64,000 nt of DNA from Petrachloros mirabilis ULC683 (GTDB taxonomy: Bacteria; Cyanobacteriota; Cyanobacteriia; Thermosynechococcales; Thermosynechococcaceae), in contig NZ_WVIC01000014.1 in NCBI RefSeq assembly GCF_009939295.1, positions 1 to 64,000 of the forward strand, in the 5' to 3' direction. The notes under the pieces are model-generated. The model was not told the origin of the DNA and made no database searches. It saw only the letters and a program-made list of their open reading frames with translations. A program made the position numbers and the translations under genes. Shown here piece after piece: positions 2,781 to 14,337 of the stretch; within the stretch, counting starts at the first letter, position 1, and every line of letters begins with the position of its first letter.

Positions 2781-2907
2781 TAAATAGGGTTGGGGCACCC
2801 GCGACCTCAACTCTCTGAAATATTCATCTCAAAACACCTCGGTGTACCAGTAAGTTTAGCGACGTTAGGCGATTGATGTGCGTTGCGCACCATGCTACGA
2901 TGCGCGC

Positions 2908-3186
2908 ATGATTCAGTCTTTTCGCCACAAGGGTCTGGCTAAATTCTATGAAACGGCCTCGATAACAGGGATTCAGCCGAATCATGCCAAGCGCCTGAGG
3001 ATGCTAATGGCGGCATTGGATACCGCTGTCACCATTCAGGATATGGATATTCCAGGCTTCCGACTGCACCGGCTCAAGGGCAAGGACTCGGAGCGATGGT
3101 CAGTCCGAATCAGTGGGAACTGGCGGTTGACCTTCGAGTTTCATGATGGCCAAGCTCACATTGTTGATTATGAGGATTACCACTGA
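2908..3186 (+). CDS. higB: HigB-type toxin (RelE-like mRNA interferase)
   Basis: A 92-residue protein of the plasmid-maintenance killer family: MIQSF, HRLKGKDSERWSVRISGNWRLTFEF and a C-terminal VDYEDYH. This family cleaves mRNA on the ribosome. The ATG at 2908 is chosen because homologues begin MIxSF; an upstream in-frame start at 2878 would add ten unrelated residues. The stop overlaps the next ATG by one base, and toxin-before-antitoxin order is usual for higBA. The short GC-rich imperfect palindrome just upstream (about 2880-2907) could be the HigA operator. Confidence 0.88.
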   Translation: MIQSFRHKGLAKFYETASITGIQPNHAKRLRMLMAALDTAVTIQDMDIPGFRLHRLKGKDSERWSVRISGNWRLTFEFHDGQAHIVDYEDYH

Positions 3187-3479
3187 TGACCATGCACAAT
3201 CCCCCACATCCTGGTGAATTCATCCGTGAGGTATATCTAGAGCCTCATTCAATGACCGGTAGACACCTTGCTTTAAAGTTAGGAGTTTCGCCTTCCACGC
3301 TCAACCGCGTTCTTCAAGGGCGGAGTGGTATTAGCCCGGAAATGGCGCTTCGCCTGTCCAAAGCACTCGGGCGTTCTCCTGAGAGCTGGCTAGCGATGCA
3401 AGACAATTACGAGCTTTGGCATGCTCGACAGTCAGTTAATCTTGCTTCTGTCGAAAAGGTTGAGTTCCATACGGCCTAA
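3186..3479 (+). CDS. higA: HigA-type antitoxin (HTH, XRE family)
   Basis: A 97-residue helix-turn-helix antitoxin. The start MTMHNPPHPGEFIREVYLEP is typical of the HigA/VapI family, followed by an XRE-type HTH (LALKLGVSPSTLNRVLQGRSGISPEMALRLSKALG). It should bind and neutralise HigB and repress the operon. Both genes look intact. The next gene downstream is convergent; a 40-bp dispersed repeat lies at 3488-3527. Confidence 0.88.
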   Translation: MTMHNPPHPGEFIREVYLEPHSMTGRHLALKLGVSPSTLNRVLQGRSGISPEMALRLSKALGRSPESWLAMQDNYELWHARQSVNLASVEKVEFHTA

Positions 3480-3527: not shown

Positions 3528-4106
3528 CGCTATCGGTAAGTCTGCGCCGAAGTCTTGGACTTTGGTGAACTGATAGGGCTCCATGATGGCTCCCCATAGA
3601 GATTTGCCGGTTTCGGGGTCGATGCCGCGATCGCAGCTCCAAAATTCCCGTTCACTGACTTCAAATCCCAATACCACTTGTCGTCGTTGACCGGCGTATT
3701 GAAAATAGCAGTTGCAGCCCAGTTCGGGGCTGGCGATAAAGCGGCTGGGCTGGGCTTGTACTCGCAGCAGACAACCGGGCAATTTTTGCAGTTGGTCGGG
3801 GCTGAGGGTTCCCAGGCGCGCGGGATCTGCCCCTGCCCCTCGAAACTGCTCAGGATGCTGGCAGGCAAAGTATTGCACGGTGATGGTGTCGTTGGTGCCT
3901 TGCAGCATCAGCACCCGCTGACGGTAGGGCTGATCGAGCTGGAGGATATTGGCCTGCTCGGCAAAGAGGGCTAGGTTGCCTTCCAACAAAAATGGCAGGG
4001 GACGATGCCACCAGCGCAAATGGACATACCAGGTGGGGTCAGCGAGGGCTTGAGCTGGGTTGTGAAATTCACCCGCCAACCATTGGGCTAAGAGTCGTTG
4101 CGTCAT
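3525..4106 (-). CDS. cpcT: CpcT/CpeT-type phycobilin lyase
   Basis: A 193-residue member of the chromophore lyase CpcT/CpeT family, which attaches phycocyanobilin (or phycoerythrobilin) to a Cys of a phycobiliprotein beta subunit. Seen here: LAQWLAGEFHNPAQALADPTWYVHLRWWHRPLP, LLEGNLALFAEQANIL, QPYRQRVLML and GCNCYFQYAG. The ATG at 4106 is preferred over 4160; the extra 18 residues do not fit the family and lie next to an inserted element. It implies a phycobilisome-bearing host. Whether the substrate is CpcB, PecB or CpeB cannot be told from sequence. The gene is flanked by two small repeats. Confidence 0.85.
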   Translation of the reverse strand: MTQRLLAQWLAGEFHNPAQALADPTWYVHLRWWHRPLPFLLEGNLALFAEQANILQLDQPYRQRVLMLQGTNDTITVQYFACQHPEQFRGAGADPARLGTLSPDQLQKLPGCLLRVQAQPSRFIASPELGCNCYFQYAGQRRQVVLGFEVSEREFWSCDRGIDPETGKSLWGAIMEPYQFTKVQDFGADLPIA

Positions 4107-7075: not shown

Positions 7076-7663
7076 ATGGTTTCAAGCATAGACTTCACGG
7101 CGGCGCATCTCACTTTGAATTTGGGAGACATGCGCTTGAGCGATGAACAATTTCAACAGCTCTGTGTTGCCAATCCAGATCTGCGTTTGGAAACCAGTCC
7201 CATGGGAGCACTGATCGTGATGCCACCAATGTTTGGCGATACAAGTGCCCGAAACTCTGAGTTAGTTACGCAACTAGGGATGTGGAATAAAGTCCATCAA
7301 TTGGGCAAGGTTTTTGACTCATCTGGAGGATATTGTCTGGCCAAGGGCTTTCGCCCCTCTCCCGATGTCTCATGGATTTAAAACAGTCGGTTAAAGGGAA
7401 TTTCGCTGAACCAATTCTTACCCATTGCTCCTGATTTTGTCATCGAGTTGAGATCTTCAACGGATCGGCTGCTTTCCCTACAGCAAAAAATGCAGGCATA
7501 TTTGGAAAATGGGGTGCCTTTGGGTTGGCTGATCAATCCTCAAGACCATCAGGTTGAAATCTATTGTCTCCACCAGGAAAAGGTGGTTCTCACGGAACCC
7601 ACAGCACTCAGGGGCGAAGCAGTGTTGCCGGGCTTTACCCTGGATTTGACCCCTGTGTGGTGA
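7076..7663 (+). pseudogene. Uma2 family endonuclease with an in-frame stop
   Basis: The frame from 7076 encodes a Uma2 (DUF820) protein, a restriction-endonuclease-like fold common in cyanobacteria. It is interrupted by TAA at 7379-7381 immediately after PDVSWI. The same frame resumes with NSRLKGISLNQ, then APDFVIELRSSTDRL, LENGVPLGWLINPQ and LPGFTLDLTPVW. No base shift is needed; one nonsense change explains the break. Catalytic-type residues (PDVSW, VIELRS, the Q/K-rich helix) are present on both sides. A downstream GTG at 7448 could express only the C-terminal piece. About 195 codons in total, the normal family length. Confidence 0.8.
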
Positions 7664-7964
7664 GGTTAGGCACTTCGATGTTGTTAGCTGGCTCCGCTGA
7701 AAGTCCTTACACTCATTCTTTGAGGTTGTCTGCAAGTCCAAAATGCCCAGAAAATTGTCTGTAAGGCAATGGTTTCAGTATTGTCTGTGGATGCAAAATT
7801 ACCCAGAGGTTTGTAAGTGAGGGCAGTGGCAACGGGTGATCTAGTTGGTTTCCGTTCAGAGAGCCTCAAGCTATACTGAAGGCTAAAGGGTAGAAATTAT
7901 CTTTCCTTCAGGGTTCTGTTCCGAGCAGCTAGCGATCTCGATATTTACAAGAAGGCTGGGTGCA
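7664..7964. other. Intergenic region with half of an attC-like site
   Basis: No gene is seen. At 7680-7692 GTTGTTAGCTGGC is the exact reverse complement of GCCAGCTAACAAC at 9788-9800, the left end of the attC-like site behind the ParA-HEPN genes. No matching second half was found here. The rest holds the upstream region of the ParA-like gene. Confidence 0.35.
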
Positions 7965-9035
7965 ATGGTTCAAAAAATTGCCTTATTCAACCACAAGGGC
8001 GGAGTTAGCAAGACTACAACCACCTTCAACTTGGGCTGGATGCTTGCCTCGAAAGGAAAAAGAGTAATTCTTGTGGATAGCGACCCACAATGTAACCTTA
8101 CGGGCATGGCTTTGGGAGAAGAAACTGAGGATGACGAGGCGCGAATTCAAGAAATTTATAATACGACTTCAAACATAAAGAAAGGTTTAGCTCCGGCATT
8201 TGAATCACAACCTAGAGCAATTGAAGCTATCGATTGTATTCCAGTACAAGGTCGGGATGATTTATTTTTATTGCCTGGTCATGTTGGTTTTGCTGAGTAT
8301 GAAGTAACTCTTGGTATTGCTCAAGAATTAAGTGGTTCAATTCAAGCCCTTAAGAACTTGCCAGGTTCTATCAATGATTTATTTGAGAAAACAGCAGCCA
8401 AGTTTAATGCAGACTATCTTTTGATTGATATGAGTCCTAGCTTAGGCTCAATTAATCAAAATCTGTTGATGATTAGTGACTTTTTCTTGGTACCTACGAC
8501 TGCCGACTTTTTTTCTGTAATGGCAATTGATTCTTTGGCTAAGGTACTGCCAAGATGGTATGCCTGGGCTAAGTCAGCAAGTTCACTTCAAATTTTAAGA
8601 GAAGCTAATTATCCTTTTCCTGATGTTAAGTTGCATTTCTTAGGAACGATCGTTCAAAATTATCGAATTATCCGAGGTAAAGAAACAGCCGCGTTTCAAA
8701 CGTGGATCGAGAAGATTGAGAAAGCTGTCTCTGAAAAGCTAATTCCAACTCTAAGGCAGAGCAATATGATGTTGCCAAATCAGATTTACAGAGATCAAGG
8801 AATTGAAGACAACTTCTCTCTTGCAAAGATTTCCAACTTCAATAGCCTCATTGCTCTATCTCAGGAACATCGAACCCCAGTCTATGACTTAACCCCTGAG
8901 CAGTTAAGACAAACAGGCATCGTTTTGGAGCAAAATCAGCAGAAACAGGAAGAATTTAGGCAAAACTTTTCAGATTTGGCAGACAAAATCATTGCATTAA
9001 GTTTCGACAGCTCCGTCTATGCAGTCAGCGCTTGA
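7965..9035 (+). CDS. ParA/Soj-like P-loop ATPase
   Basis: A 356-residue ParA/MinD-superfamily ATPase. FNHKGGVSKTTTTFNLGWMLA holds the deviant Walker A (K11 and K16), VDSDPQCNLTG is the A' motif, and DYLLIDMSPSLGSINQNLL the Walker B region. It lacks a recognisable ParB partner or parS. Instead its last 17 bases overlap the start of a HEPN-domain gene, implying coupled translation. Codon use and AT content differ visibly from the flanking GC-rich genes, which suggests horizontal transfer. In conflict systems such ATPases can regulate a paired toxin or nuclease; that role here is inference. The C-terminal 60 residues are Gln/Glu rich and probably helical. Confidence 0.8.
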   Translation: MVQKIALFNHKGGVSKTTTTFNLGWMLASKGKRVILVDSDPQCNLTGMALGEETEDDEARIQEIYNTTSNIKKGLAPAFESQPRAIEAIDCIPVQGRDDLFLLPGHVGFAEYEVTLGIAQELSGSIQALKNLPGSINDLFEKTAAKFNADYLLIDMSPSLGSINQNLLMISDFFLVPTTADFFSVMAIDSLAKVLPRWYAWAKSASSLQILREANYPFPDVKLHFLGTIVQNYRIIRGKETAAFQTWIEKIEKAVSEKLIPTLRQSNMMLPNQIYRDQGIEDNFSLAKISNFNSLIALSQEHRTPVYDLTPEQLRQTGIVLEQNQQKQEEFRQNFSDLADKIIALSFDSSVYAVSA

Positions 9036-9774
9036 CCAATTTCGCATTAGCATTGGTCGTGTCCGAGACCTAATTGCACTTCATAATTCTGTCAAAGCCC
9101 AAGCTACAGGCGCACTTGATGCGTCAGACATGTTACGTGCTGCGCTGGTTCTCGCTGTGAGCGCATTGGATTATTATGTGCATGAAGTTGTAACGCTAGG
9201 AATGCTGGAAATTCATCGAGGACATCGTTCTGAGCCAATACCTTCAGCGAATACAACTCAGTCAGCATTTTCACGCTTTCAAGTATCGTTGGGCGGTGCG
9301 CGTCAAGATCGACTGACAGCGATTGATATTGCCTCTTGGCTCGAAGCTGATATTCAACAAACTCAAGGATATGAGTTTCTCCAGCAATCCCAGACGATTT
9401 CAGCTTTGATCCCCACAATATCGAGTAGCATTCTAGCTAGACTCAATAATACTTCTTGGTTAGAGAGCGAAATCAGAGAACGTTTGTGATATCAGAGTTT
9501 TCAACAAGCAGACAAAATTGCTGATGCAATCAGATACATTTCAGACAAAAAGTTATGGGATGAAGTGGCTATCCAAATGACTAAATCTGCAAAAGATATT
9601 AAGCAGCAACTAAATTCAATTGTCGATCGAAGAAATAAAATTGCGCATGAGGCTGACATAGACCCAACTTTTAATATCGGAAGTCGATGGAATATTGATG
9701 AGGTACTTGTTGATGATGCAATTGACTTTATTGAGAAGCTTGTTGAGAATATTCATCAAGTGCTGTCGAAATAG
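9019..9774 (+). pseudogene. HEPN-domain (RiboL-PSP-HEPN-like) protein with one in-frame TGA
   Basis: One frame runs from ATG 9019 to TAG 9774 with a single internal TGA at 9487-9489. The first part (156 aa) has MLRAALVLAVSALDYYVHEVVTLG, resembling the N-terminal helix of RiboL-PSP-HEPN domains. The part after the TGA has QLNSIVDRRNKIAHEADID, a clear HEPN RxxxxH ribonuclease motif (R-N-K-I-A-H). Both halves therefore belong to one protein of about 250 residues. The TGA separates the active-site helix from the rest. It may be a nonsense mutation, a sequencing error, or two co-translated pieces (ATG at 9577 inside the second part). HEPN proteins of this kind are RNases in TA and anti-phage systems; the paired ATPase gene overlaps by 17 bases. 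Confidence 0.65.
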
Positions 9775-9790
9775 CAAAACGGGATAAGCC

Positions 9791-9877
9791 AGCTAACAAC
9801 CCGGTTCGAGCGGACTGGCAAAGTTGGACGGTATTGCGTCATAGGATCTTGGCAGCCGCTCAACCGGATCGTTGGGT
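9791..9877 (+). other. attC-like cassette recombination site
   Basis: An 87-bp imperfect palindrome begins 17 bp after the HEPN stop. Outer boxes are AGCTAAC (9791-9797, six of seven matches to RYYYAAC) and GTTGGGT (9871-9877, matches GTTRRRY). The arms pair as CCGGTT, GAGCGG and CTGxCA, with single unpaired bases C9807 and A9814 on one arm only, six pairs apart. Such one-sided extrahelical bases are a hallmark of integron attC sites. Position at the 3' end of a cassette-like gene pair and orientation also fit. No integrase gene is visible in the window. Confidence 0.5.
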
Positions 9878-9888
9878 GTCAGCAATTG

Positions 9889-10441
9889 CTACACGGTGAG
9901 ATTTAAGTTGCCCTGGGCAGGAGATGCCAGATCATCTTGCCCTTGCCGGATCATTGGTTTGCCGTAGGTGCCGCTCTGCATGAAAAAGACGGTCACAGTA
10001 CCCAAAATAGGGTCTACAACCCAAGACTCCGGCACGCCAATTTCCTCATACTGTCGGCGTTTGTCAATATAGTCGTGCTGTCGTTGTAATTCGCCCAGCC
10101 TCACGACCTCCACGACTAATTGTGGGGGTGCCATCGAGCATCGGATCGTATTGCGTGGCTTTAGCTGCTGAATATGCTCCGCTCGAAATAATCGTTAAGT
10201 CAGGGTAACGGTTTTTGGGTTCGCCTAGCACCTCCAGCTCTAGGCCATGACCTCTAACGCAATCAATGCCCAACAACAAACCGAATTGGAGAAAAAGGCG
10301 ATTAGCAATCTGCACATTCTCTCCAGATTCTGGCGGCACTTCCATGAGTTCTCCATTGAACAACTCGTAGAGTCGATCACTATCGTCGTCATAGGCAAGA
10401 TATTCATCAAAGCTCAAGAAGCGCTGCTTAGACTGAATCAT
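9889..10441 (-). pseudogene. Uma2 family endonuclease, frameshifted
   Basis: The N-terminal frame (MIQSKQRFLSFDEYLAYDD ... YELFNGELMEVPPESG ... YPDLTIISSGAYSAAKATQYDPMLD) is Uma2 and is lost near 10134. The family then continues in another frame as MAPPQLVVEVV ... DYIDKRRQYEEIGVPESWVVDP. Together they give a normal-length protein, so a small indel around DPMLD/MAPPQ broke it. Start at 10441 rather than 10477 because homologues begin close to FLSFDEYL. Convergent to the ParA-HEPN pair and just past the attC-like site. Confidence 0.8.
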
Positions 10442-10473
10442 GACGTTCCCTGTGGGTTGATTGAAAGGGATTA

Positions 10474-12591
10474 TCAATACTCAAGTTCAAGACGGGTCTC
10501 GTCCAAGGCATCCCACCCATTGGATGTTTCCGCCTCGAACGACTCGGGGTCAGCCTCTGGAGTTGGAGCTGACATTGAGAGGGTATACATCGAACCGGGG
10601 GTAACAGGTTGGGCGACGATGCTGCCTTTGCGGCCAGCCAGGGGAGGTAAGGACGGAAACGATTCCACGGGAATTTCGGGGGCGATTTGAGCCATAAAGC
10701 GTTTCCAGGCAACGGCGGCGGTGCTGCTGCTGCCTTGGGTGGGGGTGTTATTGTCATTGCCCAGCCACACCCCAGCCGCCAACTGAGGCACAAACCCCAC
10801 AAACCACAGATCCCGAGATTCCTCTGAGGTGCCGGTTTTACCGGCTACGGGGCGACCGAGTTGGGCAGGTTTACCGGTGCCGTCGGCGACGACCTGCTCT
10901 AACATCCAGGTCATGATGGCAGATGAGCTGGGGTCAAGGGCTGGTTTTTTTGGAGAGGGAGCCTGGTACAAAACCTCTCCTTCGCGACTGATTACTTTAC
11001 GAATGCCGTGGGTGGGGGTACGAACTCCCTGAGCGGCCAAGGTGCCGTAAGCACTGGTTAGCTCTAACAGTGTGAGTTCATTGGCACCGAGGGCGGTGGC
11101 ATAAAAGGGGTCGAGCTTGGACTGAATGCCGAGTTCCCGAGCCAAATTGATGGTTGGCTCAAACCCGACTTCAATCAATGCCCGCACAGCAGGTATGTTG
11201 GCGGACTGACTGAGAGCCCGATGCATAGAAATCCAGCCCCGGTATTCCTGGCCGTAGTTGTTGGGCTGGTATCCGTCCACCACGAGAGGGGCATCTAGAA
11301 AGGTGTCGTAGGGGGACAGACCCGATGCGATCGCAGCTGCATAGACAAACGCCTTAAAGGTGGAACCGGGCTGGCGCTGGGCTTGGGTAACTCGGTTAAA
11401 CTGTGACTGGTTAAAGTTGGCACCGCCCACCATCGCCTTGATTTCGCCATTGCGGGGGTCGATGGCGACCAAAGCCGCTTGCTCGAACCCCTGAGCTGAG
11501 CCATCGAGGGCTACCGTATCTTGCACCGCTTGGGTGGCAGCGGCTTGCCACTTCAGATTCAGGGTCGTGTAAACAGTGAGGCCACCATCTTGCAAGGCTT
11601 CGGGGGGTAACAATTCATCCAGTTGCTTTTGAATATAAGCCTGAAAATAAGGCGCTCGGTTATCCAGGTTGGGTGGGGGCTGAGGATTGACCTGGATGGG
11701 TTCTGACTGCGCGGCTACTGATTCCGCAAAGGTAATAAACCCCTCGCGCACCATGCGTTGCAACACTTCACGGCGACGTTGCTCTGCTCGCTCTAGGCTC
11801 TCCAAGGGCGAATATAAACTAGGAGCTGCTGGCAACCCAGCCAACAGCGCCGTTTCTGATAGGCTGAGCTGAGCCACTGATTTGCCAAAATAGACCCAGG
11901 CGGCATCTGCTACCCCATAGGCTCCTGAGCCGAGATAGACCTGGTTCAAATACCGCTCTAGAATTTCAGCTTTGCTGAGATGTTGCTCAATCCGCAAGGC
12001 CAATTGTGCTTCCCGAGCCTTTCGCAGGATGGATTGCTCCTGATCCAGGTAGCTAATGCGAGCCAATTGCTGGGTGAGGGTGCTACCTCCTTCTGTGACC
12101 CGCCCCGAAAGGAGGTTACTTGTTATGGCTCTGACCACCCCGACCCCATCGACCCCAGGATGTTGATAGAAGCGCCGATCTTCAGTGGCAATAAATGCCT
12201 GCTGCACCCACTGGGGAATGGCTTCAATATCCAGATATTGTCGGGTGGCAGGGCCAGATTGGAACACGACCCCGCCATCGGCAGACTGTACCGTCAGGGT
12301 ACCTCGACTCACTGTAGTGGACTGGGCAATCTGAGGGGTTTCGGGCAAGGTCTTGGCTACCCACCACCAACTGCCCCCCACCACAGCCGTGGTGCCCAGA
12401 ACCAGGTAGCTGAGTCGCCGTAGCCGACGGCCTCGGGTTTCTCGACGACGTTTTTGCAGCAGCTTACGGCGTAAACCCTGGGGCGAGTCCGGTACGGGCT
12501 CAAGGGTAGAAGTCGTTGTCAGCGGCTCAAGGGAGTCTTGAGTCGCTGAGGTGTCTGCGTGAGTCTTGGTTTCCCTCGGGGATTTGGTCAT
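10474..12591 (-). CDS. Class A penicillin-binding protein (PBP1A-type)
   Basis: A 705-residue bifunctional peptidoglycan synthase. A basic cytoplasmic tail precedes one membrane segment (about residues 61-79). The GT51 glycosyltransferase domain has EDRRFYQHPGVD (E137), GGSTLTQQLAR (about 168) and LERYLNQVYLGSGAYGV (about 211). The transpeptidase domain has GSTFKAF (S410/K413), SQSANIP and AGKTGTSEESRD, so all three penicillin-binding motifs are present. It polymerises and cross-links glycan strands at the outer face of the plasma membrane. Cyanobacteria usually carry several paralogues, so I give no ponA/mrcA symbol. Standing alone on this strand, with a broken Uma2 gene behind it. Confidence 0.92.
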   Translation of the reverse strand: MTKSPRETKTHADTSATQDSLEPLTTTSTLEPVPDSPQGLRRKLLQKRRRETRGRRLRRLSYLVLGTTAVVGGSWWWVAKTLPETPQIAQSTTVSRGTLTVQSADGGVVFQSGPATRQYLDIEAIPQWVQQAFIATEDRRFYQHPGVDGVGVVRAITSNLLSGRVTEGGSTLTQQLARISYLDQEQSILRKAREAQLALRIEQHLSKAEILERYLNQVYLGSGAYGVADAAWVYFGKSVAQLSLSETALLAGLPAAPSLYSPLESLERAEQRRREVLQRMVREGFITFAESVAAQSEPIQVNPQPPPNLDNRAPYFQAYIQKQLDELLPPEALQDGGLTVYTTLNLKWQAAATQAVQDTVALDGSAQGFEQAALVAIDPRNGEIKAMVGGANFNQSQFNRVTQAQRQPGSTFKAFVYAAAIASGLSPYDTFLDAPLVVDGYQPNNYGQEYRGWISMHRALSQSANIPAVRALIEVGFEPTINLARELGIQSKLDPFYATALGANELTLLELTSAYGTLAAQGVRTPTHGIRKVISREGEVLYQAPSPKKPALDPSSSAIMTWMLEQVVADGTGKPAQLGRPVAGKTGTSEESRDLWFVGFVPQLAAGVWLGNDNNTPTQGSSSTAAVAWKRFMAQIAPEIPVESFPSLPPLAGRKGSIVAQPVTPGSMYTLSMSAPTPEADPESFEAETSNGWDALDETRLELEY

Positions 12592-13561: not shown

Positions 13562-13647
13562 GCCTAACGGTGAAGCTGTGCGGCGGCAGATAACCTTGAA
13601 CTCAGCACCAGCAGCTTTCGTCCGTCCGCTGCCACGTAGTGTTAGCT
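13562..13647 (-). other. Possible second attC-like site
   Basis: On the minus strand this 86-bp stretch begins AGCTAAC (13647-13641) and ends GTTAGGC (13568-13562), which match the outer boxes of an attC site. It shares the GCCAGCTAAC start with the site at 9788-9797. It lies directly downstream of the VapC reading frame (stop at 13654) in the same orientation, as a cassette attC would. Arm pairing is weaker than in the 9791 site, so this is a lower-confidence call. Confidence 0.35.
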
Positions 13648-13653
13648 GGCGGG

Positions 13654-14068
13654 TTAAGGGAATAGCTCAAAGTAATCGCAGTGACTTGGACGAATAATCG
13701 AAAAATCTCGACGATCGAGCGTATAAACGCGAGTAATAGCAAGCCTTTCAGCTATGGCAACGATCGCCGCATCTGTAAAATCAAGCTGACTATCAGCATA
13801 TTGCTCCAAGATCTCATGCGTTCGTGCCAAGTCCTCTGTGGTTACAGACTCAACTTGAACCGCATCAGGTGTCATTTTGGATACAAAACGGCGCATAGCT
13901 TGATGCCCCAGCCTTGATGCAATCAGATAGCAGACTTCAGGCAGGACAACGACAGGCAGAACCAATAGCTCATTCAAGCTTTGAGCAACAGCCAGTACCC
14001 GTTGATGGTTGCGATCGCCCTGATTCAGTTAAGGCGAACAGAAAACTGGTATCGAGTACCGCTGTCAT
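13654..14068 (-). pseudogene. VapC-like PIN toxin, frameshifted near its N-terminus
   Basis: The minus strand starts MTAVLDTSFLFALTESG, a PIN-domain start with the first catalytic Asp. It goes out of frame at about 14020, where GGGCGATCGC appears to carry one extra G. The correct continuation is RNHQRVLAVAQSLNELLVLPVVVLPEVCYLI and LDFTDAAIVAIAERL ... TLDRRDF, with the remaining acidic residues intact. Removing one G restores a protein of about 137 residues. The start overlaps the antitoxin stop by 4 bases. An ATG at 13977 could express only a piece without the first Asp. Confidence 0.75.
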
Positions 14069-14337
14069 ACTACGTTGCTTGACCTGGAACTCCAGCCATG
14101 CACAGAGTCAATTTCATTCCGGAGGATTTCTTCATCCCGCTCTGAAACATCCGGTTGACCAGAATGACCTAAGCCTGCAATTGCAAGTAAAAAATTAGCA
14201 GATTGATTGTTGGCTTCCGTGCGTGGGGCTGATTTATAGCGAAGATAGTCGAGAAAACTGGCAAGCTCTGCCAAAGCCTCTTCAGGAAGAGCGCTGACTG
14301 TTTCAAGGAGCCGTTGCCGTTCTACAGTACTTTCCAT
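14065..14337 (-). CDS. Putative antitoxin paired with PIN protein
   Basis: A 90-residue protein (MESTVERQRLLETVSALPEEALAELASFLDYLRYKS) resembling the DUF2281-like antitoxins found before PIN toxins in cyanobacteria. Its stop overlaps the PIN start (ATGA), indicating an operon. No frameshift is seen, so the antitoxin is open while the toxin is broken. Assignment rests mainly on context and the LPEEALAELASFLDYLR pattern. Confidence 0.6.
   Translation of the reverse strand: MESTVERQRLLETVSALPEEALAELASFLDYLRYKSAPRTEANNQSANFLLAIAGLGHSGQPDVSERDEEILRNEIDSVHGWSSRSSNVV

Follow-up and report, generated by a model that had tools for sequence, protein, structure and literature searches.

A probable integron gene cassette with a ParA-HEPN pair standing alone in the chromosome of Petrachloros mirabilis ULC683

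Introduction

Most descriptions of integrons are of compact gene-cassette arrays beside an integrase gene. The integrase, IntI, recognises the folded, single-stranded bottom strand of the attC site through its R and L boxes and extrahelical bases, and cuts the R' box at G/TT, so that the cassette moves as a circle. In a 64,000-nt stretch of the Petrachloros mirabilis ULC683 genome (hereafter the window), an 87-bp imperfect palindrome lies directly behind genes encoding a ParA-like ATPase and a HEPN protein. Is this palindrome an attC site, and if so, how did a cassette come to stand there with no integrase gene next to it?

Cyanobacterial integrons, an attC model for them, single-attC loci and insertion outside arrays are all already known. 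Among 11 taxon-specific covariance models of Ghaly et al. (2021, PMC8352920), one is for Cyanobacteria-type chromosomal attCs. As excerpted from the IntegronFinder 2.0 paper (PMC9024848), a CALIN is an attC cluster without an integrase, called by default from two attCs upwards, single-attC CALINs being acknowledged. Insertion at attG sites was described with E. coli cassette libraries (Loot et al. 2024, Nat Microbiol 9:228, as cited in PMC12901181 and PMC12444791).

Results

The palindrome has the architecture of an attC site

The preliminary description had reported an 87-bp palindrome with outer boxes AGCTAAC and GTTGGGT and two unpaired bases on one side, and on re-reading its position and boxes proved exact (Table 1). 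The L''/L' stem is well paired over 6+6+3 bp, with AAC/ATC spacers and an unpaired central spacer, and its only bulges are C9807 and A9814, both in the 5' arm (G and T, respectively, on the bottom strand). The R'' box fits the RYYYAAC consensus at 6/7 positions and the R' box fits GTTRRRY at 7/7. As in aadA-type attCs of class 1 (mobile) integrons, the site has R''/R' boxes, an unpaired central spacer, a position directly behind the cassette gene and two extrahelical bases in the 5' arm, whose 6-bp spacing is the one we read from a plasmid integron (L013). In contrast to class 1 attCs, which are mostly 60-72 nt long, it measures 87 nt, its arm sequence differs and its setting is lone and chromosomal.

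Table 1. Features of the ParA-HEPN cassette and of the second attC in the window.
Feature	Position	Strand	Remarks
Putative mobile cassette, 2188 bp	7684..9871	+	281-nt leader, parA, HEPN gene, attC
Left cassette end, G/TTAGCT	7683..7689	+	cassette from T7684; shared start of homology with L170, L204 and (to within 3 nt) L206
ParA-like ATPase gene, 356 aa	7965..9035	+	Pfam AAA_31, 103.5 bits
HEPN gene, RiboL-PSP / MAE_28990 class	9019..9774	+	TGA 9487-9489 interrupts the frame; ORFs of 156 + 94 aa
Probable attC closing the ParA-HEPN cassette	9791..9877	+	R1 86.1, R2 75.6, R3 45.0 bits (R3 E 8.7e-8)
R'' box, AGCTAAC	9791..9797	+	from sequence; paired with R' in the covarying structure
L'' arm, CCGGTT-C-GAGCGG-A-CTG	9801..9817	+	extrahelical C9807, A9814; from sequence and architecture scan
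L' arm, CAGCCGCTCAACCGG	9853..9867	+	partner of L''
R' box, GTTGGGT	9871..9877	+	expected IntI crossover G9871/T9872
Second attC	13562..13647	-	R1 49.0, R2 66.5, R3 19.1 bits (R3 E 0.052)
PIN toxin-like and DUF2281 genes	13654..14337	-	directly 5' of second attC; PIN 35.9 bits; DUF2281 21.9 bits, below cut-off

The folded attC architecture that had been proposed was borne out by two kinds of search. When scored by a scan for attC architecture, the palindrome reaches 15.7, which is above anything in 640 kb of window sequence resampled by a Markov model (maximum 13.3). The top-scoring class 1 attCs on the L013 plasmid integron lie at 13.0-15.2, and two attCs on a Kovacikia minuta plasmid score 15.5 and 17.3. 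Its fold on the top strand is more stable than that of dinucleotide shuffles (z = -3.5), with 1/200 shuffles equally good. A search of the whole window against Rfam returned tRNAs only, with no match to an attC family.

The second kind of search used covariance models, as the preliminary description had suggested; their E-values are rough. R1 draws on eight cyanobacterial attCs and R2 on 59 sites, the palindrome being among the training sites of both, while R3 was trained solely on 20 plasmid-integron attCs, in an alignment laid out with R2. The plasmid sites were aligned via the covariance model because MAFFT misplaced the long ones among sites of unequal length. At E <= 10, R3 finds just two matches in the window, the palindrome (the better one) and the second attC. 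R1 picks up plasmid-integron attCs that were absent from its training, and its stem covaries; it scores the palindrome at 24.2 bits in the reverse orientation, against the value in Table 1 for the forward one. For R2, 87% of cells are paired across 58 distinct cyanobacterial attCs, compared with 25-44% in slid registers, and doubly changed cells number 235 versus 80 in shuffles. In 126 kb of plasmid integrons, R2 makes 20 matches, 20/20 of them co-oriented with the cassette genes when compared with the annotations. Judged from sequence and structure, the palindrome is very probably a functional-type attC that terminates an integron gene cassette on its 3' side.

The cassette carries a predicted toxin-antitoxin pair

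The HEPN stop codon is 16 nt from the R'' box, and gene and attC are co-oriented, as in an integron gene cassette. The pair resembles the ParA/Soj-HEPN (MAE_18760) dyad, in which a HEPN protein likewise comes after a ParA-like ATPase and which was predicted to be a toxin-antitoxin system with ParA as the antitoxin (Anantharaman et al. 2013, PMC3710099). Both genes in the window have Pfam matches, and the Rx4-6H pattern of such pairs is present in the sequence as RNKIAH. The ParA-HEPN pair is, by the same prediction, a toxin-antitoxin. In contrast to the published dyad, which was described as an operon type, it is here assigned to an integron cassette, and its HEPN gene contains a stop codon. 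The motif, RRNKIAH, is located behind this TGA. Since the frame is broken, the window copy is probably inactive as a toxin, unless the TGA is read through. The intact HEPN protein of the copy in another cyanobacterial genome, G002 (L204), has 249 aa.

Related ParA-HEPN loci number 58 in cyanobacterial genomes. A search for the HEPN gene in phage records found none, a search for ParA in plasmids found only relatives at 36-40% identity, and PADLOC gave weak ParA matches only.

The cassette ends coincide with IntI crossover points

Placing the attC behind the ParA-HEPN pair as its cassette attC, as had been proposed, held when the ends were mapped against copies borne by arrays. The window copy is 90.7% identical over 2117 bp to a locus in Leptolyngbyaceae cyanobacterium SM1_4_3 (L170), from G7683, the G of GTTAGCT. 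In L170, the pair lies within an array, with attCs at 3657 and 5825, and in L206 (genome G205) it has attCs on either side, at 2597 and 4698; in both, GTTAGCT is the R' box of the preceding attC. The copy in G002 starts at the same base as the window copy, and no attC precedes the pair in the window or in G002. The right ends read CAATCG/ATATGT in G002, CAATCG/TTATAC in L170 and CAATCG/TTAGCC in L206, and homology among these three ends at, or at most 4 nt from, the same G of R'. The cassette ends thus lie at the expected IntI crossover points.

Despite genes that are about 91% identical, the window attC is unlike that of L170, L204 and L206 in sequence beyond R'', a mismatch that may reflect exchange of the attC or divergence. 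Window homology to the L207 locus (genome G067) extends further into the attC than that to L170. At most of the ParA-HEPN loci L116-L173 no attC was detected. In G002, an ORF of no assigned function on the cassette strand (L204 2904-3590) has its first possible start inside the ParA-HEPN attC, and the leader of this ORF may have been altered by the cassette insertion.

A lone insertion rather than part of an array

The preliminary description had assigned the site to an integrase-less cassette array. No integrase gene was indeed found beside the site, and in this respect the earlier view stands; the array does not, since a 322-aa IntI is encoded on a different contig of this genome and the cassette is solitary, with none of the detected attCs ahead of it. 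The nearest other attC is 3.7 kb off on the opposite strand, so that, when set against the default CALIN definition, the window offers two attCs 3.7 kb apart on opposite strands, and it contains no intI of a complete integron. Like a CALIN, the site is an attC without an adjacent intI; it differs from the CALINs of the IntegronFinder 2.0 excerpt in having one attC per locus and an intI elsewhere in the genome.

Since their ends lie at the IntI crossover and no attC is found upstream, the window and G002 copies are best read as putative insertions of one cassette each at a G(T/A)T site, in the manner of attG insertion. In both, the left junction is non-attC sequence with a G(A/T)T crossover. 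IntI would thus have inserted the window copy singly at a chromosomal attG-type site, GATGTTG/TTGGGTG, and the cassette (7684-9871) would have brought along its own leader, the ParA-like ATPase and the HEPN RNase. With attG insertion as reported in the passages cited above, the case would share a single cassette, a chromosomal location outside any attC or attI, and G(T/A)T junctions; unlike those E. coli libraries, it is natural and cyanobacterial. A search of 390 genomes for the joined window flanks found no empty site, the flanks matching only separately, as Uma2-type sequence, and a search with the G002 flank found none either. The cobS neighbourhoods of 28 genomes of the family share 50-60% protein identity.

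Uma2-family genes, both apparently broken, flank the cassette at 7076-7664 (+) and 9889-10477 (-). The left one has an in-frame stop at 7380, and the right one a frame change near 10064-10134.

The cassette might instead be what is left of a once larger attC array, a decayed CALIN whose integrase and other cassettes were deleted. We consider such a history unlikely, for the left junction coincides precisely with the crossover and lacks a preceding attC, in the window and independently in G002, where, moreover, the right junction G/ATATGT is not an R' box. The window right junction does keep a canonical GTTRRRY box, which fits attG insertion and a lost neighbouring cassette alike. Decay has occurred in this genome: a half attC lies on contig C37 behind DUF4160-DUF2442, the GTT of R' is lost in 10/26 single sites, and one of the two intI-bearing loci is truncated. 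Against a remnant speak the distance and opposite strand of the second window attC and the spread of sites over 20 contigs and both strands. As a separate matter, a difference between single and clustered sites confined to R' was considered as an attG signature and rejected, single sites being degraded in both R' and R''.

For the second attC, the nearby PIN frame looks frameshifted close to its 5' end, the ORF being found without the usual N-terminus. The window also contains a HigB-HigA pair (2878-3479, +) similar in general type to the HigBA carried by the cassette described below; no attC is detectable behind it.

The genome holds scattered attC sites and a full-length integrase

The search for intI elsewhere in the genome, which had been recommended at the outset, turned up two genes: one on contig C18, full-length and matching TIGR02249 with 480 bits (cut-off 265), and one on contig C78 that is truncated. 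Both have short attC repeats just upstream. These intI-proximal arrays (C18, L001 2700-3305; C78, L068) consist mostly of near-identical repeats of ~241 bp, each with an attC and no evident gene.

Genome-wide, R1 finds about 46 attC sites (E < 0.01). Grouped at 4 kb, they form 34 clusters, 26 of which are single sites, a few of them at contig ends and possibly cut arrays, the assembly being a 4.12-Mb draft in 79 contigs. The longer ORF is on the attC strand at 20/25 sites with a usable ORF near R'' (one-sided binomial p = 0.002, a value qualified by overlaps among the ORFs). Genes at attCs include PIN, DUF5615, YafQ, HigA/HigB, DUF4926, DUF4160/DUF2442 and an MqsA-like gene below cut-off, the scattered sites often lying behind toxin-antitoxin genes. 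One HigBA cassette occurs twice, once within the array of C78 and once on contig C1, with 91% identity that ends at ..CCGTT of R' and with different flanks.

Contigs C1 (L085) and C7 (L025) share at least 697 bp that are 100% identical, comprising an isochorismatase fragment, an attC and the start of HigBA; on C7, the match breaks off within HigA, and a transposase-like ORF follows immediately. On plasmid pB of Kovacikia minuta (L012), an integron integrase is 67% identical to that of ULC683, and the stretch has attCs behind other genes, together with TIR, methyltransferase and endonuclease genes.

attC sites are frequent in the class, often without intI

We surveyed 194 sampled genomes of the class with R2 at E <= 1e-4, scoring no more than 22 candidates in each, so that per-genome attC counts are minima. 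attC sites were found in 143/194 genomes and intI in 65/194: 62 genomes have both, 81 attC only and 3 intI only. Single sites are common in three near-closed genomes that gave no intI match, accounting, among the matches listed, for 16/29 (G002), 10/30 (G062) and 6/9 (G009). The genomes of one related genus mostly have no attC sites, which speaks for the specificity of the model.

The 81 genomes with sites and no intI, together with many copies per genome on both strands and some sites with no same-strand gene nearby, would suit a dispersed MITE- or REP-like palindrome that merely resembles an attC and spreads independently of genes. This is nonetheless very improbable, since the unit of homology between copies is not the hairpin, it is gene plus attC, ending at the R' crossover; the stem covaries and differs from site to site, in contrast to newly made copies of a single element; R3, trained on plasmid integrons, recognises most of the cyanobacterial sites; and sites occur in arrays beside intI. 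That the hairpin is an ordinary terminator or attenuator of the parA-HEPN operon, as its stable fold this close behind a stop codon might suggest, is scarcely credible, for no T-run follows it, its one-sided bulges are conserved, its loop is long and variable, its R boxes are conserved in sequence, and homologous parA-HEPN operons lack it.

Discussion

The lone ParA-HEPN cassette of P. mirabilis fits a broader picture, towards which we lean modestly: that cyanobacterial chromosomes commonly hold scattered single cassettes, largely of toxin-antitoxin and conflict genes, which IntI placed singly at attG-type sites, in many genomes that are now intI-less. The ParA-HEPN site would by inference belong to the sequence class of the Cyanobacteria-type attCs of the same phylum; scattered single cassettes are not described in the passage on that type in PMC8352920. 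No description of toxin-antitoxin cassettes scattered singly in cyanobacteria turned up in our incomplete collection of the literature.

If the picture is true, detection that needs at least two clustered attCs would miss many scattered single cassettes. The ParA-HEPN pair can be traced as one putative mobile cassette, array-borne in two genomes (L170, L206) and standing as a lone insert in two more (ULC683, G002). Should the pattern hold, it would become possible to test which carrier mechanism lies behind many "orphan" toxin-antitoxin genes, and attG insertion would be a natural way for conflict genes to spread through the chromosomes of cyanobacteria.
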